Origin: Opisthocomus hoazin
Lineage: Eukaryota; Chordata; Aves; Opisthocomiformes; Opisthocomidae
NCBI RefSeq assembly: GCF_030867145.1
Contig: NC_134418.1
Coordinates: 7,064,802-7,128,801, forward strand
DNA length: 64,000 nt
Direction: 5' to 3'
Shown: in pieces, positions 6,536 through 55,000 of the stretch
Position numbering within the stretch: the first letter of the stretch is position 1
How the letters are laid out: each line of letters begins with the position of its first letter
Program-made: the position numbers and the translations under genes
Notes under the pieces: generated by a model
What the model was told of the DNA's origin: nothing
The model's input: the letters and a program-made list of their open reading frames with translations, nothing else
Database searches by the model: none

Positions 6536-6753
6536 CCGAGAGATGGACGGACGGATGGACGGGCAGATGGATGGACAGATGGAGGGATGGATGGATGGAC
6601 GGACAGAGGGATGGATGGACAGATGGACAGACAGATGGAGGGATGGATGGATGAATGGATGGATGGACAGAGGGATGGATAGATGGACGGATGGATGGAT
6701 GGATGGATGCACTATGGATGCATGCATGGATGGATGGATGGACAGTTGAACAG

Positions 6754-6786
<33 letters not shown>

Positions 6787-8388: not shown

Positions 8389-28116
<19,728 letters not shown>

Positions 28117-29690
28117 TAAAGGTTCTGCTTAGCTTGAAGAAGTTGATTCTGTTTGAAGACTCAGTTAACCATTTGGTACTATACTATGAATTTTTTGGTT
28201 TTTCTTTAAGCAAAGTGTTTGTTCAATCTGGAAGCTTGTCTTCTGAAATTTTTGGGCAGTAGGTAGACATCAATTTTTTTATCTTACACATACAGCAGCC
28301 ACTGCAGTGATGCGAGTTCGTAATCTCTTCTGGAATATAGCACGAATAAGCATCAGTAGCTTACAGAATACTGTTGGAATTTCACCAAAATGTATAGCTT
28401 CTTTCTGATATTAATGGTGCCAACTATTGAGGTCTCTGTTGTTCTTCTAGGAAAGTACAGAAACTTGTGAGATAAATAAGTGCACTACAATGTTCCCAGC
28501 CATGTCTGAAAATCATTTCTCAGGCAGATTTAAAAGGAGAATGTGAAAGGCTTTTGCCAGATCTTGTTTGCTGTTGGGAATTTTTGGTTTGGGTTGGGTT
28601 TTTTGTCACCCAGTTCTGAGTGGAAAATTAGTCTATTAAACATGCTTTGTTGTCAGACGTACCTTGTCTAGAAGATTTTTCTCATTGTAATCCTGATTTT
28701 TAGTTTAATTTAGGAAACACAAGAAAGGTGCAATTTGCAAACTTAATTGCTAACATGAGGCTACTTTCTGCTCCATTCACTCAAAATAAGGTACAGAAGG
28801 AAAGTTAGAATGAAGTCAGGTTTGTGATCCAAACAATACCCTGAAACATCAGTAACAGCTTTGTATTTCCATAGTAAACGTCAAGTCACCAGACCTTCAT
28901 TCACAATATGGATTTACGTTATTGTGGCATGAGCACTGATGTCCTACATACAGCAATTAGTTGATAAACTTAGATGATGGGGTTCAAGCTCTTGTGTTGC
29001 TCCCAGGGCTCTCAGATAAGACCTTCAGTGAGCTGTGGACACTGGAAACACATCAGTCTGTGCGAGGCCTGGGGCAGGGAGGCTGCCCAGGGCGAAGAGA
29101 GGGATTGCCATGTCTGCCTGCGCTGGGCAGAGCTGGGGCTCTGCGGAGGACTTGAAGGCTGTCTGGTGTCTTACTGAAAGCCGCTGGACTGAGTAAATAC
29201 AATTAAACTGTAAAATGTGATCATTTAAAAACAAAGTCATAAGACAACATTTAGTATCTCTCTTACTGCCTTCAGGTTGCAAGAAAGCTTTTTCTGAGCC
29301 TTGATGTGGGATCTGAAAGCCCATCACCCTGTTGAGTCGCACCATGTAGGCTGCACTTTGCACTGGGTTGGTCTGTTTGTAGAGGCACCTGTGCGGAGCT
29401 GCTGCTCTCGGTAAATCTGCCCAACTGAAACTTTCTGGTTTGGGTGGGATGGAGTAGAGACCAGGCCCCTCAAACCTTGAGTTCTGTCTGATTTGTCTTA
29501 GTTTTAGTTTTGCGGGTAGAAGAAGTAGGTTGAAAAGCCCTGAAAATAACGTAGCCCGTTTTATTATTTAAGGAATTATGTTTTGTGGTTGATTTCAATC
29601 TTGGATTATAAATCTGAGTAGTTATCATATGAGCTGTCAAGTAACTTAGTCCATCCTCTGACAGACAAGCTGAACTAGATACATGTAAAA
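28117..29690. other. KRCC1-type 3' UTR and following intergenic sequence
   Basis: An ATTAAA at 28635-28640, about 520 bases after the stop and followed by a T/G-rich stretch, is the best candidate polyadenylation signal; an AATAAG occurs earlier. The remaining sequence has no gene signature. Confidence 0.4.
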
Positions 29691-29699
29691 CTGAACAAA

Positions 29700-30060
29700 G
29701 TTGAGCAGGAACACACAGGTGCCAGTAACAGTTGGTCAGGAGTCTCGGGAGCATGAACTCTGAGGTTCGTGGGGATTCAGTTTTACGTTCAAAGTGTGCA
29801 TAGGGTCCTTGCTCTGGTCCGCTTTCCTAATCTCCCCTGGTCTTTCTTTGAGGCTGATGATGCCTCTGCTTTCTTCAGTGGCTCTTTTTCCTTGCTCAGG
29901 AGTTACATGCCTTTCTGTATCTTTCTGATGACTCTTTCCCTGGCTTTCCTTAGCCCTTGCTCGTCTGATGAGGAATTCTGAAGTCACACATTAATAACTG
30001 CTTTTCTCATTATTTACTTGGGCAGAGAGTGGGTTCAATCATAATTATTCTAACTGCTGA
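29700..30060 (-). mobile_element. Solo LTR related to the provirus LTRs
   Basis: The segment shares ordered blocks with the two LTRs of the provirus: GGAGTCTCGGGA, GTGGATTCAG/GGGGATTCAG, a CTTCAGTGGxTxTTTTCC block, GCTCAGGxGTTACAT, CTTTCCTTA and AxxTCACAC. All are in the same order and orientation. No internal sequence adjoins it, so it is a solo or broken LTR of the same family. Divergence from both other copies is high. Confidence 0.65.
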
Positions 30061-33000
30061 TGACAGTTGTGAGCTGTTGTAAGCTGCCAGCTGCAGGCTG
30101 CCTGTATTGTCCTACAGTGTAACTGGGGTGGTTTTCAAGCGCTCTCTGCTGTAGATACTCCTCACTGTGAGAATGACATGGGCAACGCTGCAGCTTGTTT
30201 CCCATGTAAGACAAATAATGACTTTCTCTTCGCTCACAACACCTAGTTTGGCAAACCTTGGGGCATTGTAAGATCTCTTTGATATTTCTGCCACTCTGAA
30301 ATAGGGCTGTACAAATGTGACCAGTGTCTTTCACAATTATTGGTAGGGAACCCTTGCTCCATATGGTCACATACGCCTCCTTTCCTTAGGAAGTCAGTCT
30401 AAGAAAACAGTTAGACCTCCAGCAGACAGAAAGGCCACGATGTAGTACTCTGCACACAAGGAGCAGACGAGTTCAAAGGAAAGAAGTGCCAGTTTACTTG
30501 CTTTTGAAGTAAGAGTTGCACTTTTAGAAGTCAGGAGAAGGAGATTAGCGGCTCTGAAAATATCATAAAGGCATGAATTGGCAGAACAAGGAGATGTTTC
30601 TGTTTTTTTCAGAGATCGTTCCCAGATCTGTACTCGAACTCCATACCCTCCTCCCCCACCCAATGGAAAGTGATTGCACAAACTACTTAGAATAGCTCTA
30701 AACAAAGTTTCTTAGTATCAGACATGAAAGATAAGATCCCGAAAGATGCGTTCTTGCCACATTTTAATTAAAAAATGATTAATCTGTGATGTAAATGCTA
30801 CCAGTGCGACATAGCAGATTCTCATCTAGCAGAAGTGGCTTACAGCTCTGATTCAGGTAAGGGATATCCAATTTTCTAGGGTCATAAATAATGATTATTG
30901 TTCATGTGTTTCCTGATTGCCTTGTTCCTAGCCTTTCGCATTTGTGTTGATAGTTATCTACATGCTAGACATTTTTAAAACCTAGGCACAGAGATTGATG
31001 ATTTTGTTTACCCCTTACTGTAAATATGTCTTTTTTTTTTTTTACTTCTTAGTAGCAAAGGAATTCACACTGTCTGTAGTGAAAGCTAATTCTGCTCATC
31101 TGTTCCTCCTATTAAAACTACCAAAGCATTACAATTCTGGTTTGAGAAACAAATTAAGTCACAGATCTTTCTGACACATCTGAGCAGAAGGACTTGCAGA
31201 TCGGCCTGGAGACCCCTTGGAGCCAGTGGTGTTTTCTGCAGGTATGAGGGTTCCTCTGTGAAGGCCCAACAGCACTAAGTTTCATCTGTCTCCTCTTTCA
31301 GTAAACTTTTATGCTGCCTGGCTTTCAAAAACTGCTGTATATCAAAAAGGCAAGTTAAAACTGCGTACATGTAGCAGAGCACAAAAAATAATGTTAAAAT
31401 TGCTGTTTAAAACTGAGCTTAAATGAAGACTCCTGCATTTCAGTTTGAGCTCTGTCCGTGGTTCACCAGGTCACCTGGCTCAAGTACTCAATTCTTCTAA
31501 GGCCTTTTTTCATCTACAGTTGGTGCAGAAGGGGACTCTGGCAGACTTATCCTGCCTGTGCTGTGCCCTGAAGCAGACTGCTGCTGCCGGTTCCCCCTAC
31601 TTTCTGCTGAAGGTTACTGTCCCTGGGACGTCCTTGTGTCCCTCTGTCTGCTGTTCTCATCCGCAGGCCAACAGATCAGCTTAAACTCTCCTCGTAAGGA
31701 CAGCTGATGTTGGAGGGAGGCAAGGCCACCCTTCAGCTGGAGCAGGAATAACAAGAAATGCCTGAAAGCATTGGAGTTGCTTCTGCAGTGAAAGCGTAAT
31801 AGAGCCTAGGTGCTCACCTCTGAAGGCAGCTGTCATCTTCAGGGTCCTGTGCAGAGTGCGAATGTGCTGTGTGAATGAGCAGCGTGAATGTGCTGTTCTG
31901 CAAAATACTGTCACTTTTTTGTAGCTTCTTTTCCTTTTTATGACATTTTATACTTTGGTTTCATGACTGGCTGCAGTATGTGAAAAATCTGTAGCGAGAT
32001 CCTAGTCCGAGGTCTGTCTGAAAAAGGCCACAACTGAAACAGAACATCCCTTTCTGCGTCCTGTGAGGTGAGCAAAAAGGTTTTTTGGTGGTGAAAGGTT
32101 CTCATCTGAAATCTGGTGATAGAAGGGAGAGCCCCTGAAGTTGCCTTGCATGCTCTGAGCTCAGGCTGTGGTTTCAGCGAGGCACATGGAACGCTAGCAC
32201 CTGGCAAGTTAACCCTGCCGTTGGCCTGTGAGACATATCCTCGTCATATCTAATCTGCTAACTTGTCCAGGCATCTTTCTGGGAAGATTGAGAGGCATTC
32301 AGCTGAAAGCGGTGTAAATCACCTGAATGCAGCGCCTCGAGCCGCATCTCAAATTTACCGTGTATCTGTGGAATCAGATTGCAGTGTAGAGCAGTTGTTT
32401 GAGTAGTCAGAGGACTATTACAGGTTAATTAAATTAAGGTATTTTTTTCAGCACAGAGCTCTCAGCCAGCACTGCTGTCTGACAGCACAGAAGCTGACAG
32501 TGTCCTTAACAGCTGTATTTATCAGCCAGAACACCAAGATGAAAGGACCAGGGTGAGGACTGGGAGAGCTGAATTCCCTTTCCAGCCTTTCCATGAGCTT
32601 CTCCCGTGATATACAGCTTGCCAGGGACATGGTGTCAGATGCACTCGTCCAGCTGCAGCATTTTTAACCTTAATATGTTATACCTGCTGGTGCTTCTTCA
32701 CATCCACTGGTGGGAATGACTTGAGGGAGAAGGTTACAGCCCTGTCAGATTTGCTGCTGTCTTCCCAGCTGTACCTGTTTCCAATCCTGCTTGTGTTTTC
32801 GGAGTGAGGTGGTGAGCAGCTGGGCACAGTAGCTTTATCACCCTGACCAGCTGTAGCTGACTATACCCTTACACTGGTGATGAATGCAGGTATCGCAAAA
32901 ATGGGTCATAAAAAATGAAGTAAGTACAGTGCCATAAATCTTTCTATGGGAAAGCTCTGGAAAAAGAGCAATGGGGCTCCTCACCCCCCAGTAGGCTACT

Positions 33001-39742: not shown

Positions 39743-42449
39743 GTGCTGAAGGAAGATGTTGAGTGACAGTCGTACTCAAGGAGCGGAAAAGCTGGTGTGG
39801 AGGGAGGTGGAAAGCACTTGGTTGAGGAAGGGGAGAAAAGTCAGAGGTGGGAAACAGGGGAGAGGCAGGGAAAGAGTAGAAAAAAGAGAGTCATGTTGAA
39901 GCTGTGGGTCTGAAGGACGAAGTTCATGCACTAGAGTGACCCTGGTCAAAATGCTGATGGTGGGTTTGGGGAGGCAGCTCCGACAGAGAGCTCTGACAGA
40001 CAGACAGAAGTCTGCCAGCTTCTGCCTGGGCCTGCCTGAGGAGCTACGAAATGAACCTTGGCAGTCTTCAGGGCTTCAGAGGCAGAACCCCCCCAAAAAA
40101 TTCCAATCTCTTTTGAATGTTTTAGTGAAAATACAATGGTGTTAACCTGTCTGGGGCTGCGAAATCAAAGTCTGAGAGTTTTCTGAGGAACATGCTCAAG
40201 TACAAGCGTACGTGGGGGAAAACCACTGGCTCAAATTCCTTCTGAATTTGATTTGAGCCAGTGCGGGATGTCTAGGTTCATGGCAGCTGTCAGGTCTTTA
40301 CCTGAGGACTGGCTCTGGAGGTGGCCCCATCCTGATCTCTCCACATAGCCCCTCACCTTAGCTGCGGAGGAGGTGGAGACTCTCTGTGTCCACTCACATG
40401 GAGCGAGGACTTGCTGTGGCTCCTCCACGGACCTCCACATGGCTGCAGGGCACGTCCCAAAGCTGGCAGGATGCTCTACAGCAGCAGGAAAGTTCCGTCT
40501 CAGAAGCACACCAGGTTCCCAAGAGAAACAGTGAGAGTATCCCTGCAGTCCCATGAGACGTAGCCAGAGACAAGCAGATGCCCTGCGTGGGGTTGGGTTA
40601 AATTATGTGTTTGGTGCCTTCCTTGTGGGGTCTTTTTAGACTCTCCAGAGGACCCCAACATGTGTGGAGTTCCACCAAGGCTTATTTTCACTTGTTCCAC
40701 TTGAGTCAAAATTCCACGTCTTAGCCCCTAGTTTTTCTGAATTACTGCCTTCAGGATTAGTCCAGTGGGACCAGTGAGCTGCCTGCATCGACCTTAGCAG
40801 CCTGAAGCAGAGGCAGCCAGGCTGGGCTTGCTCTGAAAACTGCTTCTTCCCTTGATCGAGTTGGAACCGAGGGGAGCCGGTGCACTGCAGATGGGTTGGG
40901 GGTTTCTGTGGGCCACAGCTTGCACGCTCTGCACCGGCCAGCTTCCCTCCGCTCCAGAGCACAGAGGTCAGGGGCGAAAACACCAGGGAATAAATACGAT
41001 TGTGTCACCCGTTTGGCTCCGAAAAGCAGGCAGGTTTGTGTAATATCTTTTGTGGGATCTACCGAAACCACTGGAAAAGCAGCAAAAGCCTCTGCCTCAA
41101 GGTCCTTCCCCCAGGCTGCACCCGGAGTCTATCGCAGCCGCAGCGATACTGCTGCTGCCGTGAAAACAGCCCTCCTCGGTTTGTGGTGATAAACAAATGA
41201 CACTAAAAAGGCGGGAAACTTCAGAGTTTTGCAGACTTTCCAAGCCTACATGCACCGTGTGCCGGCTGTGCAGAGGGCAGCAGCTCGCTGCCGCTGCGGA
41301 GGACGCTGCTGCCGCGTCCCGCAGCCGGGCAGGGGTCTGCATCCAGCTGAAACCTGCGTGTGGATGTAGGAACCCCTTTCCCTACGGCTATCCCGTCTTC
41401 CCGGGGCTACCCCTGCTGTGCCACACTGTCCTGGTGCAGCTTGGGACTGAAGAGTGGACAATGTGAATTTTTGGTGGTTCCTTTTTCCCCTGCAGGCTCC
41501 GAAAACAGGTTGGAGGGGTAAAGGCTTTGTATAAAAAGGGTAATTATTCACAAGGAAATGAATTCTCATGAAACATGTAGCGTGTTAGCAAGTATGAAAG
41601 GTGCTTTAACCAAAATAACCGTGTGTTTTCTGTGAGGCTTTGTTGTGAGCAAAAGGAAGGGAGCAGCAGAGCGTAGGGGGGACCAGGCACCGGCCCTTTC
41701 CCAGGCTGGGGCGGGGGGGGAGTTCAACCTCCCATCCCAAGGGTGAAGGGAGTGTTTTCGTGGTGCTTGGAGGGGGAAAAGGGATTTCTGTGTTTTAGAC
41801 AGTGATTGATTTATTCATTTTTTCATGAGCTCAGTTATAATGTGTGCTTCTTAAAGAGAAGTGTCTTTTATCGAATCCGTGTACCAAAGTTTCACTTTTC
41901 TTTAAATTATTCTGCGGCAATGCACTGCTTCTTTGCGCTTCCCAGCCTGGTGATTGTGAAAAGTGGGGGGTTTAACTCATTTCTGGAGCTGGCCCAGCAG
42001 TTGCCTGTTGGGTTAAAGGCCAGCTCTTTAACCTTTTAATTTCAGCCTGGATTGCAAAGGGCTTTTTGTCTGCATAAACCCCCCGTTCTCTGCGCGAGCA
42101 GCGCCTCTGAGATGAGGTCAGACACATGGGCTGGAAATGGGGTGGCTAATCTAGTTTTGAAATTGATGATGGTTTTAAACTGTTTGAGACCCCCTATGTA
42201 TATTTTAAGGCTCCTTCAGGGTTCAGAGGCAGGGGGGTGACACAGGTCGGAGCGGCAGAATGGAGGAGAGGAGCAGGTTTGTGCACCAGGTCAGAGCCCC
42301 ACTCTTCAGCCCAAGGCAGAAATCTTTATGTTTCAGTGAACATTCTGCAGACAGAAAGCAAGTGAGGGATTTTGGCCTATAAAAGGGAAAAAAAAAAACC
42401 AACCCACGTCTTTTCACCAGATTTTCTCTTTCCTAGTGTAGCCAAAGTT
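39743..42449. other. Intergenic DNA left of the provirus
   Basis: No gene recognised. It contains a perfect 13-bp inverted repeat (40224-40263) and a GC-rich patch at 41100-41420 (frames 41197-41466 plus and 41097-41342 minus, rich in Ala/Cys, without recognised domains). Confidence 0.4.
40224..40263. repeat. Perfect 13-bp inverted repeat with 14-nt spacer
   Basis: CACTGGCTCAAAT at 40224-40236 pairs perfectly with ATTTGAGCCAGTG at 40251-40263. An alternative inner stem (CAAATTC with GAATTTG) is also possible, so two exclusive hairpins can be drawn. Confidence 0.85.
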
Positions 42450-42956
42450 ACAAGCCTGGGTAGTGAGCAGCTGAGCAGGCGGCGATCGAACAGGCAGGCC
42501 ATCCTCTAACAGAACAATTTTATTGAGTACATGCACTAGGCAAACTAGGCAAAGCAAAGCGGTGATGTCCAGGCTCCGAAAACAAGATCTCACCAATCCG
42601 TTGGCCAGACGTCCTGGGAGTCTCGGGATCCCAGAGGTAGTTGCTGCAAAGGTCCATGTGGATTCAGCTCCGTTAAGTCCGAGGTGATTACAGGGCCTTT
42701 CGTTCTGCTCATCTTTTATCGTCTTTCCAAGTCTTTGAGGCTGGTAACACCACTGCAATCTTCAGTGGGTTGTTTTCCGCGCTCAGGCGTTACATTCCCT
42801 TCGCTTTCCTTCCAAAGACATTGTCCTTGGCTTTCCTTATCCCCTTCTCCTCTGCTTAAGGAGTCTTAAATCACACAAGAGCAGCTTCTTCACATTAGCA
42901 TTTGGGGATGGGAGGTTCCAAGACAAGTTACTTATGCTAACTCTTGCTTTTTTACT
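42450..42956 (-). repeat. 3' LTR of the provirus
   Basis: Shares ordered blocks with the right-hand LTR, for example AAGATCTCACCAATCC (42582-42597), GTGGATTC, CTTTCCTTATCC and AAATCACAC (plus-strand reading). On the minus strand it contains an AATAAA signal (42524-42519). The left limit is approximate. Pairing with the right LTR is supported by position, but it could be an unrelated solo LTR of the same family next to a 3'-truncated provirus. Confidence 0.75.
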
Positions 42957-43143
42957 GTGAGGGTTATAAAACACTGGAACAGGTTCGCCCAGAGAGGTTG
43001 TGGAGTCTCCATCTGTGGAGATAGTCAAAACCCAGCTGGACGCAGTCCTGGGCAATCTGCTCTAGGTGACCCTGCTTGAGCAGGGGGTGTTGGACTAGAT
43101 CATCTCAAGAGGTCCCTTCCAACCTCAACCATTCTGTGATTCA
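42957..43143 (+). mobile_element. CR1 3' fragment between env and the 3' LTR
   Basis: Contains CACTGGAACAGGTTCGCCCA, GAGAGGTTGTGGAGTCTCC, GGACTAGATCATC and GGTCCCTTCCAACCTC, and ends ATTCTGTGATTC. It is in the opposite orientation to the provirus and directly abuts the LTR. It either inserted into the provirus 3' region or marks a break between provirus and LTR. Confidence 0.93.
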
Positions 43144-43336
43144 TGCCAACCGCAGGCTGCTTGGCCTGCCCTCCCCTCCTGGATGGCCCTCTTATAGCAG
43201 AGGAGGCCATCCCTCACATCAAGGTCTGGTATGGCGTGTGTCCCCACCGCTCAACGCCTACTGGGTTGCAGCCAACAGCGGAGCTAGAAGTTCTTCTTGG
43301 TGGCAAACACAGAGGCCAACCCAGTCTTGCCCTTGA

Positions 43337-45961
43337 CTATGGTAGGAGGCGCTTGGCCAGCCCCAGTCCTTTCATCTGGTTGTCAATGCAGAGTTTCACC
43401 TGCCTCATCCAGTAACAAGTCGCTACCATGGCGAAGCACACACAGACTTGCATTAGCAATATAACTACAACGGGATGCAGCAGCGTATTGAAGAGGCCGG
43501 TGGCCGTGGGGGACCAGCCGAAGAAAATTTCCCACCAGTGGTGTTCTCCCACCCTCTTAATTCGTTCTATTACCTGCTTTATAACATTGCCATCATGATG
43601 CACAGTTATTAGGATCTTTTTAGCTTCTGCCTTGGCATTTTCTAACAGCTGCTGTAAATTCGCATGCTCTAACATTTCTTTTACAAGGGACAAATCCATA
43701 CCAATGGGGGTTGGGGTTATACTATGATACAAGGTGTAGTTTCTGATTAGCAACTGGCTAGTAAACACAGGCGGTTTATACACAAAATCGCAGCCTCTAA
43801 TAATAGCTACATTGCAAGCACACATATTGGAGTCATTAAACACGGTCTGATTATACACGTCATTAATTTGCACATGTTGACACATGGTTCTAAAACACAC
43901 GCACCCTTTCCCTACGTACACTAACACGGTTTTATTACTGCTCTGGGGATTGATCTCAAAATGGCACACCCCTTCTTTGGTGTCAAAGCAAACATCGCTC
44001 GCCTTAAGGGCGTCATCTTCGCATATGAATCCCAGCCCCCTTTCCAAAATGCAGGCTTCCAGATCTACTGATTGCCATTTCCCATCAGACACCCTCGCCC
44101 ACATGCGATGGTCCAGGGGGTAGACCACCGACCCGTTTGTGTTAACCCCCAGGGCCACGATGGGGTAGACCTTTTCGATGCGAGCCTCTGCCACGGTCAG
44201 GACGTAGGCGATGACTGCGTTGAGGACCTGGTCATGGGTGAAGTTGACGAGCCTCCACCAGGCTTGGAGCTGCCGCTCCTTCTCTGTGGCTGCGTCCCAC
44301 ACGATCTTTCGGATCTCGGTGGGGAGGACGCCGTTGTCACCATCTCTCAGGATACCTGCAATGACACTCTGCACCCACATCTGGGCCTGGATGCAACTGA
44401 GAGCAAGGGAGACATTATTTTGTTCGATGCCCAGTGCTCGTAACAGCAGCTGGTGGTCTTTCTCACTTATTTGTTCCCAGGTGGGCAACACCTCGGACAC
44501 GAGCCACTGCCCCATCCCAAGGCTGGCCAAGGATGAATTCAAGGGGTTGAGGAGGCCCTGCACGCCCGAGGTGACAGTCTCCAGCTTGTTAGCCAAGACC
44601 TCAACGTTCATACTGTTGAGGACTCCCAGCCCGGCACCTCCTCCTCCCAGCGCCGTGGCCAGCAGGTCTCTTCTGGCCCGGATCCCCTGGATGGAGCGGC
44701 TGTGGAGCCAGGCCAGCCAGCCATTGTGCAGGGTGGACAGGAAGGGGGTACAGTGGGGTCTGACGGATGAAATATTGACGGTGGACAGAGACAACACCAC
44801 CTTCTTCAGTGACCGGACAGGCCCGGTCAACAGCTCTTGGATGTGATTTTGCTTGACTACATAAGGGCCTATTTTGGAAACAAAAGGGCGTAAGACAGCA
44901 ATGATGGTAAACTCCTTTTTAAATCCTTCAGGGCCTCCTATCCACCACTTCCCTCCAAGCTCTGGGGACATTTCTACGTTCAGGTTTCCTTGACACCACA
45001 CCTGGAGGTTTATGACCAGGTGTGGGCAGGGTCCGTAATCCTGATTATACCATGCAGCCTCTGTGCCTAGTTCAGATCTATTGAGCATTTTGCTCTCGCG
45101 GAGGCAGTTTACTGGCACGACCCACTTGCGGCTGTCAGGGGCAGAGACGGTGACGGTGGTGCCATCGATTTGCATCGGGTCGGTTATACTTTCTTGGGAG
45201 TAATTAATTTTCAATTTTACTCGGTTGCCAACTTCAGCGTACTGGGCCGCATGCCAGGCCAAAAAATGGCACTTTGAGATCTTCACGGCAGCAAAGGAGT
45301 GCGTCATGGTGCTAATCTGGAATTTAAAGGACAGCCCCACGCTGTTGCGTGCCCAGAGGCAGACCACAAACACTGGCTGGACCAAAGTAAAATTGTACCA
45401 ACAGTCCAATTTTTCCACAGCACAGTTTTTTTTCTGATTCTTCTTAGTTTTTACTTCGGTGACGGAGATTTGAGTTACTGGCTGGTGAGTGGATCCGTTA
45501 ATTACCCTGCACCCTACCTTTATTTCTTGTCCCACCTTCCCCAGCAGCTGTGGAAATCTGTTTGTGCTATCCCAGCCCCACTCGTTTTCCAAGTACACCT
45601 CCGTCCCGTGCATAACCACCGTTGACAAATTTAAGCCTTTGTTAGAACTTAATCCCATGCTTCCTGTATATTTTATGTGAGCTTGAGACCAGGGCCAATC
45701 GGTCCCAATTTTCATGTACCTCCTAACCCTGTGCTGGGCTGTGGGCCATGTTTCAGGGTGCCTTTCTAAGTGGGAACGCCTGACTTTTTGTCTGAGGTGC
45801 TGATGAGTTGGTTGGGCATGCTGGGTGCTCAGCGCTATGCACATACCAGAAAGCAAAGCAAATCCTGCAACCACAAATTTGAAAGCATTTTCCCCGCAGC
45901 GCAAACAGGGCTGGTGATGCCACGAAGTTCGCCCTTCCCGCCGGTCACAATCGCCTTCCAT
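43337..45961 (-). CDS. env: Endogenous retroviral Env polyprotein, 874 codons, intact frame
   Basis: A full-length envelope frame with no stop or frameshift. Features in order: a hydrophobic signal segment near residues 28-45, a large N-glycosylation-rich surface part, and a furin-type RARR site at about residues 428-431. A Gly/Ala/Leu-rich segment follows at once and fits a fusion peptide. Then comes a long ectodomain with several Cys pairs, a tryptophan-rich membrane-proximal region, one transmembrane helix near residues 830-855, and a short basic tail. The gammaretroviral CX6CC motif was not found, so this is not a standard gamma-type Env. It starts 47 bases after the pol stop, so it is presumably made from a spliced RNA. 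Retention of cleavage site, fusion segment and membrane anchor would allow membrane function, which is inference. Confidence 0.9.
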   Translation of the reverse strand: MEGDCDRREGRTSWHHQPCLRCGENAFKFVVAGFALLSGMCIALSTQHAQPTHQHLRQKVRRSHLERHPETWPTAQHRVRRYMKIGTDWPWSQAHIKYTGSMGLSSNKGLNLSTVVMHGTEVYLENEWGWDSTNRFPQLLGKVGQEIKVGCRVINGSTHQPVTQISVTEVKTKKNQKKNCAVEKLDCWYNFTLVQPVFVVCLWARNSVGLSFKFQISTMTHSFAAVKISKCHFLAWHAAQYAEVGNRVKLKINYSQESITDPMQIDGTTVTVSAPDSRKWVVPVNCLRESKMLNRSELGTEAAWYNQDYGPCPHLVINLQVWCQGNLNVEMSPELGGKWWIGGPEGFKKEFTIIAVLRPFVSKIGPYVVKQNHIQELLTGPVRSLKKVVLSLSTVNISSVRPHCTPFLSTLHNGWLAWLHSRSIQGIRARRDLLATALGGGGAGLGVLNSMNVEVLANKLETVTSGVQGLLNPLNSSLASLGMGQWLVSEVLPTWEQISEKDHQLLLRALGIEQNNVSLALSCIQAQMWVQSVIAGILRDGDNGVLPTEIRKIVWDAATEKERQLQAWWRLVNFTHDQVLNAVIAYVLTVAEARIEKVYPIVALGVNTNGSVVYPLDHRMWARVSDGKWQSVDLEACILERGLGFICEDDALKASDVCFDTKEGVCHFEINPQSSNKTVLVYVGKGCVCFRTMCQHVQINDVYNQTVFNDSNMCACNVAIIRGCDFVYKPPVFTSQLLIRNYTLYHSITPTPIGMDLSLVKEMLEHANLQQLLENAKAEAKKILITVHHDGNVIKQVIERIKRVGEHHWWEIFFGWSPTATGLFNTLLHPVVVILLMQVCVCFAMVATCYWMRQVKLCIDNQMKGLGLAKRLLP

Positions 45962-46007
45962 TTTCCTTTATCTGCAAAACATAAGCAAGACGGGCTCTCC
46001 AGCCCCG

Positions 46008-49000
46008 TTAATTTCCCTTCCATGCTTTTAACTGCGAAGAATGGAGCCATTTTTCCTGCCTTTTCGCCCCCTTTCTGATTTCTACCTGGTACATGGAGGG
46101 GCTGGCCTTGTTCACAACCCTCACGGGCCCCATCCATTGGGGTGCCAGCACCTGGTTCTTCTCTCTAACCCCCCGATATGTTACCAGGTCCCCCGTGTTC
46201 CACTCCACGGGGCGCAGCAGCGCTCCCAGCTGCTTATCCATCTTGGGGATGTTGGTCTCCTGCACCGAGGCAAGCTGGTGGTATGTAGCCAACACAGTCC
46301 TCAGGATGTCCTGGACCCACCTGTCCATCAGCACGCGGGGCTGCAGTTCATCTGGTGGCTCCCCTCTTTGCCACCAGCGTCCTGGCAACTTCGGATCTCT
46401 TGGAGGAGGCAGCTTTTGTGGAGAAGGTGCATGAGATGCCACGGCCCCCCGTAACGCCAGCAGGACCACTGGGAGCTTCTGATCCCAGTCTTTCCTTTGT
46501 TGGTTCACAAGCTTCCTCAGCGCCATCTTCAGTGGTTGGTTGGGCCCCTCCGCCGAAACGGGCTTCTGGAAATGCCCTGTGATGTGAAGCTTTTGCTTGA
46601 TGCCCAGGGCTTGGCACACCGCTTTCGTGAGTTCTGTGACGAAGCGTTGGCCATGGTCCGAGTCGATCTCCTTTGGGACGCCCCACCGTGAGAAGACATG
46701 CTCTACCAGGATCTTTGCACTTGCACTGGCTGTGTTGTTTCGAGCTGGAAATGCTTCCACCCACTTGGTGAAGTGATCGCTGACCACCAGGCAATACCTG
46801 TTCCCTTGGGCTGTTTGGGGCAAAGGGCCAATGAACTCCATCTGCAACTTGCTCCATGGCCCAGAAATCCTCTGGTGGCCCAGGAGGGCTTTTGTTGTTT
46901 TGACATCGGGATTGTTGGCCGCGCACGTCAGGCAGTTGCTGACATACCTCTCCACATCCTCTCTCATTTCAGGCCACCACCCAGCACCCTGCAGCCTCAC
47001 CATGGTCTTGTCTGTCCCCAAATGCCCCTGCTCATGAGCTAGGGCCACCAGCTCTGTCCGGACGAGTTCAGGCACCACCCAGACCGGGAAATCCGCACCC
47101 TCCCTCCGTGCCAGGACCAGCCCCGAGACGTCCTTCCACACCTTGCACCCTTTATACTCCCTGCCCTGCGCTAACTCCCAGATGCTGGGGTCTTGTGCCT
47201 GCAAGCCCAGCAGATCCACGGTCTCCCAGTGTCTGCTGGGAGCCACCGACACAGGGCCATTCTCCCAGGACTTGCTGGCCTTCCACATCAGCCCTTTCTT
47301 GGCGCCTTGCTTGGCTTTGGCGTCTGCCTCCTTGGTCCACTTCGCCTCCTCCGTCCCCTTCTTGTGGGCCTTGACCTTGACGATCTGGGCCGGGTGTGCC
47401 CTCTGCTCCGCCAGCCTTGCGAGGTACAGCAGCTTTTTGGCGTAAGTGACGGGCTTGCCGTCGGCGGACTGCATGTCCCTCTCCCTCCAGAGAGGCAGCC
47501 ACTCCAGGGCCACCCGCACCACCCAACCTGAATCCGAAAATATGGCCAGCGGCTGGTCTGCCGGCGTGTTTTCCAGGGCGACCGTCACGGCCACCAGCTC
47601 GGCAGCCTGGATGGAGTGCGGCAGGCACTTCCCCTGCACCACCTCCCCGGTGCCCCAGTTGATGGCGGCGTAGCCCGTGTAGGGCACTCCTTCCACGTGG
47701 TAGTTGGACCCGTCTACGAACCACACGACATAGCCCCTCTCCTTGGCCACCTCCAGGCTGAGGCTGCTCTCAAACAGGGGTGCCCGGCATGGCTTGGGCT
47801 CGGCCAGGGGACCCCCCACCTCCTCCTCGTCCCTCTCTCCGCTGATTACCACCCTGTAAGCGCCGGATGAGGGCTCCACTGTCTCCATTGGGCCCTCCTT
47901 GTTGGTCAACGCCAACGCCCAGTTGGCCATCCTGGGGCAGCGCAGGGGACCGCCATCCCCCTTCCCTGACAAGAGGTATCTCACTGGGTCGTGGGAGGTC
48001 CTCAGCAGCACCGGGGCTGACCCCAGCAGGTACTCCCAGTGCTGCAGGGCCCAGGTCAAAGCTAAAACCTCCCTCTCGTAGTCGGTGAACTGCTGCTCGG
48101 CCGGTATCAGGAGCCGTGAAGCATGGGCAACGGGGAGGAGGCGGGCACCGTGCTGCTGGCCCAGGGTGGCCCGCAGCCCCCTCCCCGTGCTGGCCAGCTG
48201 TAGGATGTACAGTCTGTCCCCCCGGGGATGCACCAGCATGGGGGCTTGCACCACGCTCTCCTTTAAGGTCTTCACCGCCTCGTCCTGCTCTGGCCCCCAT
48301 TCCCATGAGGTGTCCTTCTTCAGGAGGTGGCAGAGGGGGGCAGTTTTCTCCGCATAGCCCTCAACGAACTCTCGGGAGAACCTCAGGAGAGCTAGGAAGG
48401 ACCTCAGGGTAGTGGCATCGACTGGCGCCGACACCTTCTGTATTAGCTCAACCCTCTGCTTCTCAAGTAAGCGCCCTTCCTCCCTCAGGGTCATCCCTAG
48501 GTAGGAGACCTCCTTCCAGCACAGCTGGGCCTTTGTGGGGCTGACCCTGAAGCCTGTCTTCTGGACAGCCTCCAGCACCTCTGCCAGCACCTCCAGGTTC
48601 TCCTCCTTCGTCCGGGTGTGGATGAGGATGTCACCGGCGCAGGACAGCACACTCTCCCGGTGGCCGAGCTTCTCCCACATCCTCGTGACGTACGCGTGGC
48701 AAATGGCAGTGGCATTGTGGAAACCCGGGGGGACTCTGGCGAAGGCAAATTGCCGTCCTTGAAGGGTGAAGGCAAACTTGTGCCAGGATTCAGGGTGCAA
48801 GGGGATGGCAAAGGATGGGCTGGTCAGGCTGAGCACTGAGAACCACTCGGATCCCCGGGAGATGGCCGCCATGACATCGGGGTACTTGACCACCGCAGTG
48901 GTCCGCAGTGGGGTGACACGGTTCAGGGCACTGAAGTCAACCGTCAGCCTCCATGTTTTCCCATCAGCTTTCCGCAGGGGCCACACCGGGGCATTGCTGG

Positions 49001-49652
49001 TGCTCTGCTGCTCCACCAGCACCCCCTGCTCCAGCAAGGTTTTGACTGTGTCCCACAAGCCAGCCTCAGCCTCAGCCGGGTACTGGGGCTGCAGCTGAGG
49101 AGGGGGGTCTGGCCCTTTGACTGTCACCACAGCGTCAATCTGCCCGCAGTCCAGCTTGCTCCTTGCCCAGACCTGGGGGAACCGCTCTGTGACCTGTTTC
49201 ACTCGGGGCTCCCACTCGGGGTGGAGCAGGAGCTCGGGGGCTTTCACTGACATCACCCTGTGGCTCGCCGGGATGATGGGCGCGTCGCTTTGAGGGCAAT
49301 GTAACAGCGCCTGGTTTGCCAGGTCCACCACCACCCCCATCTTTGTCAGTGCAGAGATGGCTAAAATTCCCGGCTTTCCCTTCATTTCCATTTTCCCAAA
49401 TTTTTCAGACCCTTTGGCAGCCCCAATTTCAAAGGGTACAGGCCCTGTGAACGGCACTGAGGATTTTTGGCCGTTCGGCCCTGTCAATTCAATAATTTCA
49501 CAAGTTTGGAAGAGCCCGGCTTTGCCAGGGGCCATATTCAGAATCGAATAAGAGGCACCGGTATCAATTAACATCACTTGTCCAAGCACCCCCCCTCCAA
49601 TAGTTATATCAACTATCAGGTGCCCCCACGAATCGGTCTTAATCGGTGCCAC
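46008..49652 (-). CDS. pol: Endogenous retroviral Pro-Pol, about 1214 codons, open but with altered RT active site
   Basis: Same frame as gag, ten codons after its UAG; the first listed codon is GTG, so expression should be by stop readthrough rather than a separate start. Domains in order: aspartic protease with DTGA (Asp30), reverse transcriptase (about 170-420), RNase H with FVDGS, an AAEL glutamate and FSDS, then integrase with an HEQGH/CLTC zinc motif and SDHG. Oddities: RT motif A has Ser at residue 275 where the catalytic Asp belongs, and the YxDD box reads CAGD (338-341), so Tyr and the first Asp are lost. The first integrase Asp is Glu (about 939). Reverse transcription by this protein is therefore very unlikely, yet the frame has no stop or shift. 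Confidence 0.92.
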   Translation of the reverse strand: MAPIKTDSWGHLIVDITIGGGVLGQVMLIDTGASYSILNMAPGKAGLFQTCEIIELTGPNGQKSSVPFTGPVPFEIGAAKGSEKFGKMEMKGKPGILAISALTKMGVVVDLANQALLHCPQSDAPIIPASHRVMSVKAPELLLHPEWEPRVKQVTERFPQVWARSKLDCGQIDAVVTVKGPDPPPQLQPQYPAEAEAGLWDTVKTLLEQGVLVEQQSTSNAPVWPLRKADGKTWRLTVDFSALNRVTPLRTTAVVKYPDVMAAISRGSEWFSVLSLTSPSFAIPLHPESWHKFAFTLQGRQFAFARVPPGFHNATAICHAYVTRMWEKLGHRESVLSCAGDILIHTRTKEENLEVLAEVLEAVQKTGFRVSPTKAQLCWKEVSYLGMTLREEGRLLEKQRVELIQKVSAPVDATTLRSFLALLRFSREFVEGYAEKTAPLCHLLKKDTSWEWGPEQDEAVKTLKESVVQAPMLVHPRGDRLYILQLASTGRGLRATLGQQHGARLLPVAHASRLLIPAEQQFTDYEREVLALTWALQHWEYLLGSAPVLLRTSHDPVRYLLSGKGDGGPLRCPRMANWALALTNKEGPMETVEPSSGAYRVVISGERDEEEVGGPLAEPKPCRAPLFESSLSLEVAKERGYVVWFVDGSNYHVEGVPYTGYAAINWGTGEVVQGKCLPHSIQAAELVAVTVALENTPADQPLAIFSDSGWVVRVALEWLPLWRERDMQSADGKPVTYAKKLLYLARLAEQRAHPAQIVKVKAHKKGTEEAKWTKEADAKAKQGAKKGLMWKASKSWENGPVSVAPSRHWETVDLLGLQAQDPSIWELAQGREYKGCKVWKDVSGLVLARREGADFPVWVVPELVRTELVALAHEQGHLGTDKTMVRLQGAGWWPEMREDVERYVSNCLTCAANNPDVKTTKALLGHQRISGPWSKLQMEFIGPLPQTAQGNRYCLVVSDHFTKWVEAFPARNNTASASAKILVEHVFSRWGVPKEIDSDHGQRFVTELTKAVCQALGIKQKLHITGHFQKPVSAEGPNQPLKMALRKLVNQQRKDWDQKLPVVLLALRGAVASHAPSPQKLPPPRDPKLPGRWWQRGEPPDELQPRVLMDRWVQDILRTVLATYHQLASVQETNIPKMDKQLGALLRPVEWNTGDLVTYRGVREKNQVLAPQWMGPVRVVNKASPSMYQVEIRKGAKRQEKWLHSSQLKAWKGN

Positions 49653-49685
49653 AAAAAGGGGCGGTGCGGGTGCCTGGCAGCCCTA
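49653..49685 (-). promoter_or_regulatory. Gag-Pol junction with in-frame amber stop
   Basis: Gag ends in UAG followed by GGC, and the frame then stays open without another stop into protease. Gammaretroviruses use UAG-G readthrough at this position. A downstream pseudoknot was not checked. Confidence 0.6.
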
Positions 49686-51380
49686 TTGCTGAGCCTTAGA
49701 CCCCGGGTCGATTGGGTTGGAGCTGCTGTGCTTTTTGGCCTCGTGCAGGGCCAATTTTCGGAAGAGCTCCGTGTCCGGCAAGCCATCGATATCCTCCTGC
49801 TTCTCGTATTTTATCAAGCGCTTCCTCAGCTCAGCCCGCCAAGGGTTGGACTTCTGAAATCTCATCCCTTGCTGGTTCTCCTTCCCCGGACCACCCTTGC
49901 CATCGGAATCTTTACGGTTATCTCCTTGCATTTTTCTCACCCCTGAATTTTGGAAGGGAATGGCCGAGCTTTTCCCTTTCTTCCCCCCGAGAATGTACCC
50001 CGGGAACACTTGCTTTTGCAGCTCAAAATTCTGGGTCAGGATCTGCTCCAGCTCAGACAGTGGCTTTCTGGCCGCGTCCCCACCAGCGATCACCCGCAAT
50101 GGGGGTGTGAGCCCCACCACCAGCGGCTCCTTGAATTCGGGCCTGTCAAAATTGAGGGGGGAGTCCTTCGAGCCGGGCAGCCCAGCCATCTGGTAGAGCA
50201 TCTTCTTACGGTTAACATAGGCATCTGGACGCTCCTCGGGGTTTTGCTTCTCCTGGTGGAAGAGCACTAAGGGGTTAACCTCGGGGAAGAACACCTTCAG
50301 CACGGCCAGCTGGACGTCCCCGATGTCCGGGACGTTGCCCATCTGCACGTCCCCCGGCAGCGCTGCAAAATCGTCTGGTTTCATGCACTTTCTCACCACG
50401 TCTATCAGGTCACTCACTGAGCTGCCGCTCTGGCACCTGGGCAGCCGCTGCGCCCTGGACAGCCAGTTGACCGCCGTCTCCTTCGTCAACGGCCCCAGCA
50501 TCTTCCCCACCGTTTTGAGCTGCTCGGGGGTAAACCAGATCACAGGCCTGTTGGTGTCTATGGCCTGGAGCGGGCTGTGGCTGGCCAGCTCGTCAGGGGG
50601 GCTCTTTTTAATTTTGGAAGCCTCCGCCTCCCCTCCTTGGAGCTGGCACACCTCCTCCCGCAGAGGAGCGTAGGGGGATGGCCTGGTGGGGCCGTTGGCA
50701 CCCCACACGTCATCCTCGTAGTCGTAGTGGAGCGGGTGCGGCTCCGAGGAGTCCTCCCCTTCGTCGTTCCCCACCCGGCTCCTCTTGCCTTGGATAGCGG
50801 CCATGATGCCCCTGGAGACCCCCAGCTCCGCCTGCAGCTCCTGGATCTTGGCATGGCACACCTTGTGGTCAGGGCCGGTGCCCCGGTCCCGCTGGACGTC
50901 CTGCAGGACTGCCCGCACCGCGCTCTGCGCATCTTGGGTCTCTCCGATCCATTTGCCAACCTCCTTCTCCAGCTCCTCCGTTTTCAGCTTCTCATAGCCC
51001 AGCTTGTTCTCCAGCCGGGTGATCTCCACCGCGCTCCGCAGAGAGTCCCCGCACAAGCCCTGCACCTCTGCCCGCAGGTTGTCCACCTGCATTTTCAGCT
51101 CACCCTTGGCCTGCTCCAGCGTCTGCACATTCTCAAGAGCCTCCTTCAGCAATTTGGACAACTCCCTGCCCACCATCAACAAGCCCTGCAAAGCCGCACG
51201 CTTCTTGCACTTATTTGTGGGTTTGGGCTTTTTGCTCTCCTCCGACCAGCTCTCCCACTGCTGGCACAGCTGCTGGTACGCCTCCGGGCCCTGGAAAGCC
51301 CCTGGGGACCAGATTGGGGGGAGACACTTCTGGAGCACAAACTGCTCCAGCTTCCAATTGCTAACAATATCGGTCATCAT
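49683..51380 (-). CDS. gag: Endogenous retroviral Gag, 565 codons, coiled-coil N-terminal half, no zinc knuckle
   Basis: Begins MMTDIVSNWKLEQFVLQK and runs open to a TAG (49685-49683). Residues about 70-175 are a heptad-rich, Leu/Glu/Lys stretch that fits a coiled coil. A Pro/Asp-rich linker leads to a capsid-like region (about 285-440), with PEERPDAYVNRK weakly resembling the major homology region. The C-terminal part is basic and Gln/Lys-rich, but no C-x2-C-x4-H-x4-C zinc knuckle is visible. A coiled-coil Gag recalls proteins of the chicken ENS-1/ERNI group; this is a family-level suggestion only. The in-frame amber stop points to Gag-Pol readthrough. Confidence 0.88.
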   Translation of the reverse strand: MMTDIVSNWKLEQFVLQKCLPPIWSPGAFQGPEAYQQLCQQWESWSEESKKPKPTNKCKKRAALQGLLMVGRELSKLLKEALENVQTLEQAKGELKMQVDNLRAEVQGLCGDSLRSAVEITRLENKLGYEKLKTEELEKEVGKWIGETQDAQSAVRAVLQDVQRDRGTGPDHKVCHAKIQELQAELGVSRGIMAAIQGKRSRVGNDEGEDSSEPHPLHYDYEDDVWGANGPTRPSPYAPLREEVCQLQGGEAEASKIKKSPPDELASHSPLQAIDTNRPVIWFTPEQLKTVGKMLGPLTKETAVNWLSRAQRLPRCQSGSSVSDLIDVVRKCMKPDDFAALPGDVQMGNVPDIGDVQLAVLKVFFPEVNPLVLFHQEKQNPEERPDAYVNRKKMLYQMAGLPGSKDSPLNFDRPEFKEPLVVGLTPPLRVIAGGDAARKPLSELEQILTQNFELQKQVFPGYILGGKKGKSSAIPFQNSGVRKMQGDNRKDSDGKGGPGKENQQGMRFQKSNPWRAELRKRLIKYEKQEDIDGLPDTELFRKLALHEAKKHSSSNPIDPGSKAQQ

Positions 51381-51619
51381 GGTGAGGGGAACGAGATCCG
51401 AGACGGCTCCGTCTCAGGGCAAAGCTACCATAACACCAGCACCACCGACCCACCCGCAGAGGAAGGCTGCGACCCTCCCTGCTCCGAAAAGCCGCCCCGG
51501 GGGGGAAACGCCAACCCTGGTAGCAAGGGAAGGGGAAGGTGGGGACGGGTGGCCGCAGCCGAGCGGGCAGCCGCTGCGACCCGCCGGCTCCCGGGGAGGG
51601 GAAAGGGAAGGGTTGCAGG

Positions 51620-52037
51620 AAGGGATGAAGCAAAGCAGAGGCGTAGGACCCCAATAATAAGATCTCACCAATCCTTGGCTGGATGTCCTGGCAGTCCTGG
51701 GGATCTGGAGATGATTCTGCAGAGTTCCGGTGGATTCGGCAGCTTTAAGGTCAAGCTGGTTGCGGGGTCTCACTCCAGTGGGTTTTTATAGCCATGGCAG
51801 GTTGTTGTTCAGGGCTGGTATCACCTCTGTTTACTTTCTCGGTGGCTTTTCCTCCTGCAGGTGTTGCTTCCCTCCCCTTGTCTTCCCAAGGACGCTTTCC
51901 TTGTCTTTCCTTATCCTCTCGGTGCTGATTAGAAAAGCTGAAATCACACGGGGAGCAGCTGCTCTGCCCCTTATCTGTTTTTGGGAGGGGGGCCTGGGTT
52001 AGTCACCGCTTTCTCATGTTAACTTCTGCTTTCACCA
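51620..52037 (-). repeat. 5' LTR of the provirus
   Basis: Aligns in order with the left LTR and with the solo LTR at 29700-30060. Shared blocks include AAGATCTCACCAATCC (51659-51674), GTGGATTC, CTTTCCTTATCCTCTC and AAATCACAC. On the minus strand it starts TGGTGAAAGCAGAAGTTAAC. By eye about two thirds of positions match the left LTR, with several indels. A primer-binding site could not be assigned. Confidence 0.78.
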
Positions 52038-55000
52038 GGTGCCCTGAAGAGGGAGAGCTGGAGCCTGTCCCCACAGCACCCATCTGCTCGAAGGCCCTCG
52101 ATGGCCTCCTCACTTGCTGCACAGCCCATTAGCACCGGGGTTTTGGGGGGAGATCACTCATGGGGCTCACGTCTGACACCTGTCACACACACGGACCCCC
52201 AAGCCCCCACCACTGAGAAGACCTCTGCTTGCTGGCGGGGGAGATGGCAGGAGAATTCACACAGTTTGTAGTTTAGATCCATCTTGACTTCTGGACTTCA
52301 AAAGCAGCATTTTTGCATGCCACCAACCAGCCCGCCGCATGCTGGCGTGTGCCTTGGGGCTACTCCACGATGTGCCAGGAGCCTCGGCCATGGTGTGGCA
52401 TCAGCTGTAAATCTGCACCTGCAAAGGCAGGCGGACCGCCCCCCGACCTCACCCGACAAACCACATCTTAGCCTGGAGCAGTTCAGAAAAGAAAACTTGG
52501 CCCGCTTGATTTTTTTTTCTGCTATTACACTAAGAAATAAGGTCATACTCATCTTACCCCGTGAAAATGCTAGCATTTTCAGTGCTACTTTTAACCCTAA
52601 CGAAGCTACAACCTTCCACGGACTAAAATCATTTAAAAAAATTTGAAGAGCAAAAAATGTTCACCCATGGCATCTTGAGCCCTGGGGAGTTTCCGTCCCG
52701 CAGCCTGTTATCCCCAACAGGCCCTTATTCCAGGTGCTGCAGTACTGGCCATGCTGGACCAAGCTGGATGCTAAGCAGCCTTCCCCGATCCCAAAAGTCA
52801 GCCCTTGTAGCCCCAAAAGGCACAGCGGGAATGGATTTTTTTCCTTATTTTTGTGGCAACTGTTCCTCCAGCCTGGCATTTACAGCCCAGCTGCAGTTAC
52901 TTCTGCTGCAACGCGGGAGTTAACAGAGACGAAACCCAGCCAAGTCCTGCTTCTTGTCTGTAGACCCCTTTCTTCTGCTCTGATGCTTTGCTCCAGCCCC
53001 CCAAAAACAAACACTTTGCCGTAAGAAACCCGTCATAGGGGGAAAATAAAAAGTTGAAAATGTAACAAAGCTGGTGAAAGCGCAGGGCATTAGCATCAGC
53101 GTGGTGAGTTGTGTGGGGTGCGGGCTGAGGAAGAGGGGTGGGCAAGGAGGAGACCCGCAGGGCGAGCACCAAGATGGGGCAGGGAGGTGGCTGGGCTGGG
53201 GACGGGGATCATTGTCTTTCATTTCAGAAAAAGGATAAATCCCCTCTAGAAACTGCAGCTGAATAACACAAATGCACCTAAATTCAGCGATCCCCCCCAC
53301 CTTGCCCCGGCCGTGAGCCAAACACTGGTGATTAGGAGCCGCTGTACCCTAGCAAGGTCACCAGCAGATCTTCCTTGTGTTGACAGATCAGTTCAGCTTA
53401 CACCCTTTTGTCCTCCCCTACTTTCTTCCCAGGACAGCAGCCCCAAACAACGTGGGGATGTTGTAAACAGCAGCTGCTCTCCTGCACATTCCCACAGTGC
53501 TTTTATTTTTGTCGGCGATGGGCTGCCAGATAAAGGCATCCCACCTCCAAAATGTTTTCTTCTAGGAGCAACACCCAGTCCCGAGAACAGCTTGGCCTCT
53601 GGTAAACAGGTGAGCTGCAGATAAACAGCAGCTGCAAAAAAATTGAAAATTAACCCCCGTTCCAGCTCACACACTATGCTTTTACACTGCAAATATTCCT
53701 TTTTCTTTCCACAGGAGACATCCTACAGGTAAAAGCGCTGCAGGGAAACATCTCTAAAGCTGCTGTAATCTCCTGGGGAATCTTCCCAAGCCAAAATATC
53801 TGCTTAGACAACCCAATGTCACCGGCCATGCAGCAGCGTTTGGTGCCCAGTGTACCATGCCCTGTATCTGAAGTGGTAATGGTGACAAAAGCCACCTCTG
53901 GGAGCACTTTGGTCCTGGCCAGGAGGACAGAAGATGCTCCAGGTGACCACAGCAGTGAGGAGAGGGGGATGCCACTGCAGCAGCCGGGGATGTTGGGCTG
54001 AGCTCACCGACAGCACCATGGGGATAGAGGGAAAATTCACCGGCGGTGGCATTTCTCGTATTAAGCAAACCCCCCGAAAATCCGAGGTGCCCACACCCTG
54101 TTCTGGGGAGGTCCCAATCCGGGAGTGATGTGAAACAAAAGGGGAAAGGCGAGCGGGAGGTGAGGAGGGGAGAGGCAATGGTGGCTGCACCCTGCCTCAG
54201 GGGCTCAGCTCTGAAAATGAGCCCTTAAAAGTGCTGAAATGCATTTGAAAGCACCAAAATTACTTTCTCCTGCCAGGAAAGAGTTAAGGAGCGAGTCAGC
54301 CCACCCTAAATTTTAGCAGCCGAGCCCTTCATGGCAAGGCTGCTGGTGGTTAGAAACCCGCTTCGAGCAGGAAATTATTTCAAACAGAAATGGGGAGGGG
54401 ACATGTTACAGCAGCATGGAAAAATCTGGTGCAAAAATGGACCAAAACAATGACACCGTATAAGATGCAATATTATTTTTCCTATTCCTTCGCCAACTGA
54501 AACCCCGGGGGAGGTTTCTTGGTGCCCCTATGTGAGACCCCCCTGGGAAATCCCCCCTCGCTGGAGACCCAGCCCAGCGGAGACGCTGAGGCTTTGTAAG
54601 CACCACGAGCATCTGCATGACATGGGCAGAAAAGAAAACCAAACCTTGCTCAGCAGCCAAAGTGGCAGTCAATAAATAAAATTAATAAATAATTTAATTT
54701 TTTTTTCCCAACCATGGAAATGTTGATGGCTTGCTGACACCAGTTCACCCCTGTAATTTTGCATCACGTATTTCACTCTTCAAATCCTAAATCCCAAGTG
54801 CTTCAAATCTCTCCCTCCCTAAGACATTTCAAAGCCACTCTGATATTTTGTCCATCATTTCAATATTTCTGCATATGAGCCATGCAGTGTCGCAGCCACC
54901 AAAGCAGCGCCCGCTGCGAGCTGGGGAGCCCCAGCAGAGTTTCCTTATTTTTGCGGTTTTTCAGCCACTGAATTTGTTTGAGGTTTCTTGCTTCTGGCTT

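Follow-up and report, generated by a model that had tools for sequence, protein, structure and literature searches.

An ortholog of chicken Ovex1 in the hoazin genome: open gag, pro-pol and env frames with a probably long-dead polymerase

A 64,000-nucleotide stretch of the hoazin (Opisthocomus hoazin) genome (contig NC_134418.1, positions 7,064,802 to 7,128,801; the whole stretch is called the window here) carries on its minus strand a retrovirus-derived element which, judged by its motifs, frames and splice sites, is the ortholog of the chicken locus Ovex1. The gag frame (49683..51380, minus) comprises 565 codons (51380-49686) closed by a UAG stop at 49685-49683, and contains a polybasic stretch, predicted coiled coils and a major homology region (MHR) identical to that of chicken. 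Beyond the UAG, the pro-pol frame (46008..49682, minus) continues in the frame of gag for 1224 codons (49682-46011) and encodes protease, reverse transcriptase (RT), RNase H and integrase, which were recognized from Pfam and PDB matches and from the catalytic residues. The env frame, or ORF3 (43337..45961, minus), has 874 codons (45961-43340). The three frames add up to 2663 codons with no internal stop, and the count thus bears out the sequence-only reading of this DNA, which had reported gag, pro-pol and env to be open over about 2650 codons. Pfam identified RT, RNase H and integrase domains in pol and none in gag and env, for which relaxed thresholds returned chance-level matches only.

The signals needed to express these frames are also recognizable. 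A splice donor (TTG/GTGAGA, 51661..51670, minus; GT at 51668-51667) is placed as the chicken donor at +96/97, and a splice acceptor (GCAG, 45959..45975, minus; AG at 45973-45972) precedes env, the ATG of which begins at the 11th exon base. In chicken, ORF3 starts 11 bp past the splice acceptor (PMC2717909). The TATA box, donor, acceptor and final AATAAA of the window all lie at positions matching those of chicken, with a single splice from the 5' leader to ORF3. The LTR-derived TATA promoter would produce an unspliced mRNA for Gag and, by read-through of the UAG, for Gag-Pro-Pol, and a singly spliced mRNA from the same promoter would yield Env (LTR, long terminal repeat). No significant RNA structure was predicted downstream of the UAG (z 0.33; pseudoknots are outside the model), and no Rfam match was found in 42000-53000.

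The published description of Ovex1 (Carre-Eusebe et al. 2009, PMC2717909) concerned chicken, where it is LOC422926, and zebra finch; in it, the chicken locus is reported to encode a 565-residue Gag, a UAG, a 1786-residue Gag-Pro-Pol and an 873-residue ORF3, and its RNA products were demonstrated. The frame order and sizes agree closely (565/1220/873 in chicken and 565/1224/874 in the window), as do the motifs, the splice sites, the repeat fragment in the 3' untranslated region (UTR) and the degenerate terminal repeats. The published chicken motifs (Gag MHR, polybasic stretch, protease active site and WMGPVRV) were recovered letter for letter, the UAG between gag and pol and the placement of donor and acceptor are those of the published locus, and the integrase triad E, D, E has spacings of 59 and 35, as in the chicken E(X)59D(X)35E (PMC2717909). 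The env product differs from that of chicken, being 86% identical over its full length (P0016), as expected for another bird. The sequence-only reading had brought in chicken Ovex1 as a comparison for frame retention; in fact it is this very locus, for which ratios of nonsynonymous to synonymous substitution (dN/dS) had been published: gag 0.08, pol 0.18 and ORF3 0.16 (PMC2717909). The co-option of Ovex1 is known, and the window contributes anatomical detail and not a new kind of thing. The additions made here are the depth given by kiwi and ostrich, the shared ancient RT losses, a control within the same genome, two Ovex1-only Env modules, the U3 match and a third LTR.

The element is flanked by a 5' LTR-like promoter region (U3 and R; 51628..52032, minus), with its TATA box at 51784-51790, and by a 3' LTR (42480..42950, minus; end uncertain) with an AATAAA polyadenylation signal at 42524-42519. 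Aligned over U3 and R (52032-51628 against 42950-42552), the pair shows 72.7% identity in 385 columns, a Kimura two-parameter (K2P) distance of 0.342, 21 gap events and a score of 232. A wider alignment scored 234, while none of 200 dinucleotide-shuffled controls exceeded 47, and BLASTN gave 68% over 347 columns, so the two-thirds match estimated by eye beforehand was a fair one. The 5' LTR end differs from the 3' LTR end; by eye, R of the 5' LTR shows no AATAAA, and the boundary sequences revealed neither a target-site duplication nor a primer binding site. Unlike the chicken repeat of 120-122 bp, the match in the window reaches about 260 bp further upstream through U3, an extension not found in chicken by the 2009 paper (PMC2717909). 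A further difference from chicken is that the family has a third LTR here, apparently a solo one, at 29652..30082 (minus), about 12.5 kb beyond the 3' LTR (BLASTN E 1.8e-22 to the 3' LTR and 3.6e-6 to the 5' LTR); outside the element, tblastn met with no remains of gag, pol or env in the 64-kb window. Between the env stop and the 3' LTR lies a repeat fragment (42958..43142, minus) with 82%, 71% and 70% matches to three other places of the window. The earlier claim of a CR1 copy in the 3' region is thus upheld for the repeat itself, and its CR1 label comes from the chicken paper and not from a repeat library: the 3' UTR of chicken and finch Ovex1 contains CR1-Y4, antisense in chicken (PMC2717909).

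The three LTRs bear on whether the element is one clean provirus or a rearranged composite, the 5' and 3' LTRs of which stem from different insertions. The third LTR shows that other copies of the family existed here, and the 3' LTR is as near to it (73.1% over 416 columns) as to the 5' LTR (72.7%); the third and 5' LTRs are 69.3% identical over 303 columns. Over 336 common columns the unique differences number 62 in the 5' LTR, 35 in the 3' LTR and 57 in the third (binomial p 0.008 for 5' against 3', 0.028 for 3' against third and 0.71 for 5' against third), and a composite Ovex1 was argued for in the 2009 paper on the grounds of env and the 3' UTR (PMC2717909). However, a slow 3' copy within a conserved 3' UTR explains the pattern equally well, the 5' and 3' copies have one orientation and enclose the frames between them, and a 5' and a 3' repeat are also present in chicken and finch (PMC2717909). 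Either the 3' LTR is slow-evolving within the conserved 3' UTR or more than one insertion supplied the two LTRs; the latter, which the sequence-only reading had raised as the alternative for the left LTR, is in our judgment rather unlikely. Since the match runs through U3 and another LTR of the family lies 12.5 kb away, the LTR divergence is a poor clock and unfit as a date. The question matters little for the age of the element, because its presence in distant birds dates it better than its LTRs.

The Env protein consists, from the N- to the C-terminus, of an anchored leader, an RXRR site, an Ig-like domain 1, an Ovex1-only domain 2, an R-x-R/K-R site, a fusion-peptide-like stretch, a transmembrane (TM) subunit and a membrane anchor. 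The leader contains a hydrophobic stretch at 28-46, its membrane topology being a prediction, and the C-terminal helix at 832-867 (Kyte-Doolittle maximum 2.7) would serve as the membrane anchor. Among the 28 rows of the Env alignment, the leader RXRR site was found in all 26 that reach it and the site R-[AT]-[RK]-R between the surface (SU) and TM subunits in all 28; conservation was scored on 11 rows, outside which lie the 14 rows P0020-P0033 (with P0019, mutually 97.7-99.9% identical), and the cleavage sites were counted in all 28. A furin-type SU/TM site and a C-terminal anchor are features of a retroviral envelope, and the CWLC and CX6CC motifs of the gammaretroviral type are absent from the window Env, as they are from chicken and finch ORF3 (PMC2717909). 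For ORF3, the 2009 paper had already pointed out that an N-terminal region is hydrophobic and that potential cleavage sites are conserved, and the present details bear on its doubt whether ORF3 is an envelope (PMC2717909). Domain 2 is possibly Ig-like; it shows no sequence similarity to domain 1 (score 24, shuffle mean 28.7), and Env found no match in PDB by single-sequence or profile search. For the TM subunit, the fold of an epsilon/spuma-like fusion protein of paramyxovirus-F type is a proposal.

Multi-copy envelopes of avian endogenous retroviruses (ERVs), such as P0038 of kiwi and P0040 of Mycteria, share SU domain 1, the SU/TM junction and the TM subunit with Ovex1 at about 38-54% identity, and are probably of the GGLTR11 type of the 2009 paper. 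They differ in lacking the Ovex1 leader and domain 2, their complete starts being mostly signal-peptide-like, and most of their copies in the hoazin genome carry stops. The anchored leader ending in a furin-type site and the second surface domain are Ovex1-only modules, absent by BLASTP from all 31 relatives. The structure alignment covered 38 of 59 Env proteins and 25 of the 31 relatives, four of which (P0045, P0051, P0061 and P0068) have another N-terminal sequence at the position of the leader.

Ovex1 proteins were found across the birds by protein homology searches, in which the best 7992-7998 candidates by common words were scored. Apart from the chicken Env, that of the crane Balearica is 94% identical, and kiwi (Apteryx mantelli) has an Ovex1-type Env of 874 amino acids with 85% identity over the whole length. 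As both Ovex1-only modules are present in the kiwi protein, it can be taken as the product of the Ovex1 gene and not of a mere related ERV. The ostrich Pol of Ovex1 type has 1109 amino acids (84% identity over 91%), and Pol orthologs among named birds also include Grus, Ciconia, Heliangelus, Willisornis and Melanerpes; Gag has seven rows of relatives, and both named ones are birds. Kiwi and ostrich belong to the Palaeognathae, so the ortholog rows span palaeognaths and neognaths. The viral contigs scanned with gag, env and pol gave no relatives. The palaeognaths were still to be examined according to the 2009 paper (PMC2717909), and no report of kiwi or ostrich Ovex1 was met in the passages of the Ovex1 literature covered; a 2016 paper used ostrich and tinamou genomes, however, and no priority is claimed.

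Open frames at such an age are far from neutral expectation. In 300 simulated runs at half the LTR distance, 43-44 stops were expected on average with a minimum of 23, against none observed, and even at 0.05 substitutions per site the minimum was still 5 stops. The proposal of the sequence-only reading that the frames outlast neutrality, given the LTR divergence, is in keeping with these numbers. The frames could be open merely because the provirus is young and nearly intact, as three full frames by themselves would suggest, but the probability of this is negligible: the K2P distance of the LTRs is 0.34, gag is single copy, and the orthologs in palaeognaths, fowl and Neoaves share the same lost Pol residues. 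A young, near-intact provirus is excluded by these ortholog rows unless they represent separate insertions. Within the hoazin genome, the only match of Gag is itself (12 of 12 candidates scored), and the further Pol matches, from 38 scored candidates among 8305, have 28-35% identity. Env has at least 78 other matches (52 of 502 candidates scored, as for the following counts); 41 of the 49 long ones (at least 301 residues) are interrupted by one or more stops within the match, and most of the eight open ones are partial. Some sites of long Env matches look like duplicates of each other. On one contig (C40) lie 34 of the 49 long matches, and it may be a repeat-rich sex chromosome.

The Pol comparison of 17 rows (the window, a 99.6% identical JGI protein and 15 others, with the RT register set by an RT alignment) points to a polymerase which is out of action in every ortholog row. 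In all 17 rows, Ser or Cys occupies the position of the first catalytic RT aspartate, YxDD has Gly or Ser instead of its first aspartate, and integrase has Glu instead of its own first one. RT and integrase losses of this kind have been reported for chicken and finch (PMC2717909), and as ostrich shares them, these losses are suggested to be older than the living birds; Pol was probably dead before crown birds. With RT and the integrase triad damaged in every row, Ovex1 can hardly copy itself. The RNase H residues D, E, D and D are retained in 17, 17, 16 and 17 rows, the integrase HHCC residues in all 17 and the protease DTG in 13 of the 14 rows reaching it. Mean identity is 0.93 in the integrase zinc part, 0.90 in RNase H and 0.88 in protease, and lowest (0.81) in the thumb/connection part. 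These values also concern the explanation that selection acts on Env, perhaps with Gag, and that pol stays open since the unspliced RNA or the Gag read-through is needed and disruption would harm the transcript. The loss of the two RT aspartates and the first integrase aspartate throughout, the low conservation of the thumb/connection part and the higher published dN/dS of pol (0.18) than of gag (0.08) all agree with it, whereas the conserved RNase H, protease and integrase zinc part, with nearly complete catalytic and zinc residues, count against it, because constraint at the RNA level alone would not single them out. We regard this restricted selection as rather improbable.

Retention of Ovex1 by host selection is very probable in our assessment. 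The retrovirus would have entered the germ line before the divergence of living birds and afterwards have been retained by the host for its proteins. Support for co-option is good: the frames stayed open throughout crown-bird time, the polymerase is dead in each ortholog row, the proteins are strongly conserved, and the paralogous envs of the same genome are mostly broken. The earlier suggestion that one or more of the proteins may be under host selection gains from the same evidence. Renewed copying is an unlikely reason for the open frames of a single-copy element with RT and integrase losses, which makes host selection the natural interpretation, and the published dN/dS agrees with it. Several points weigh against it. 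The dN/dS support consists of the published values, and translation and processing of the products are presumed, the 2009 paper likewise working at the RNA level. One Pol row of the 17 is without one RNase H aspartate, and the remaining protease row of the 14 reads DIG. Mean predicted local distance difference test (pLDDT) values are low for the structure models of both Env (51) and Gag (44). Rooted on distant ERVs, the env tree places its root among passerines (support 63-74) and not at the palaeognath/neognath split; with several weak nodes and so distant an outgroup, vertical descent is not shown by this rooting, and the root of the pol tree was set on ostrich by choice. Ovex1-like LTRs also occur elsewhere in Gallus: a junglefowl study reports one locus of this kind on chromosome 3 (PMC10164170), and the LTR family thus has members outside the Ovex1 locus. 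The synteny evidence, finally, is weak and confined to one V-set exon of the window. It is rare for a locus to keep, as Ovex1 does, the gag, pol and env frames of a single retrovirus open throughout crown-bird time.

The function of the retained proteins can be approached from their parts. The kept products would be Gag, protease and RNase H with near-complete catalytic residues, and Env with its anchored leader, two furin-type sites and C-terminal anchor; these details, along with the apparently long-dead polymerase, make the function of Ovex1 easier to test. The 2009 paper describes an Ovex1 Gag that has a coiled coil at its N-terminus, lacks a zinc finger and is presumably not myristylated (PMC2717909). 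In the window, Gag helices are predicted over 67-214 at low confidence, and Gag gave chance matches only against PDB by sequence. Matches of the Gag model to mainly long-helix proteins were left uninterpreted at a pLDDT of 44. In foamy viruses, the N-terminal tail of the Env leader contacts the N-terminal part of Gag for budding, and Gag has no membrane signal (PMC3667135). Ovex1 Env similarly has an N-terminal tail, a predicted membrane helix and a furin site, and since its Gag also resembles the foamy pattern in its coiled coil, presumed unmyristylated state and lack of a zinc finger, a foamy-like Gag-Env pair is possible by analogy. The Ovex1 leader differs in lacking the paired Gag-binding tryptophans, with a single Trp that is Gln in Pithys, and the likeness is one of architecture. 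Foamy viruses are also not known to have pol behind an in-frame UAG after gag, unlike Ovex1.

Expression of chicken Ovex1 is highest in ovary and otherwise broad, and the authors favour receptor interference (PMC5006616). Syncytins and receptor-interference Envs such as Fv4, named in the same source, resemble Ovex1 as captured env genes kept by selection; Ovex1 differs in also keeping gag and pol open. The most likely mechanism, which we put forward tentatively, is a host-selected surface Env with Gag as its membrane partner. Env would sit as a glycoprotein on the surface of gonadal supporting cells and others, bind a receptor or partner and act as an adhesion or fusion protein or as a receptor-interference factor, and Gag would work together with it at membranes; we infer the topology of Env, its surface role and its pairing with Gag. 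A more far-reaching proposal, quite unlikely in our view and built on the foamy analogy, is that birds keep the whole assembly module, namely a capsid-forming Gag, the protease and an Env whose anchored and furin-released leader meets the coiled-coil Gag N-terminus at the membrane, with a dead RT, the product being a host-encoded enveloped particle or a Gag-Env membrane lattice. If true, such a particle or lattice would link gonadal supporting cells with germ cells by transferring material or signals, and would be older than the living birds.

The neighbourhood of the element had been assigned to the KRCC1-CD8B interval in the sequence-only reading. A V-set exon (57727-58179), 5.7 kb from the element, has CD8 beta chains among its PDB matches (E 1.1e-9), which would fit the CD8B side of that assignment; antibody V domains score better, so the synteny is suggestive only. 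The frame at 27289-28113 is a putative KRCC1 by resemblance, and it gave no Pfam match. In chicken and zebra finch, Ovex1 sits between CD8 and SMYD1 (PMC2717909). Elsewhere in the window, two plus-strand frames (23555-23890 and 24366-24761) contain zf-met/C2H2-jaz zinc fingers, and GC-rich long open frames of 330 and 469 codons occupy 60168-62026 on the minus strand, the longer being repetitive by eye and probably no gene. Tandem arrays of GGAAA (35 copies, 5386-5561) and GATG (61 copies, 6542-6786) are followed by a complex minisatellite (7206-8045) with nested periods of 21 to 157 bases, and ARAGORN in bacterial mode called a tRNA-Thr (agt) at 11874-11965 on the plus strand.

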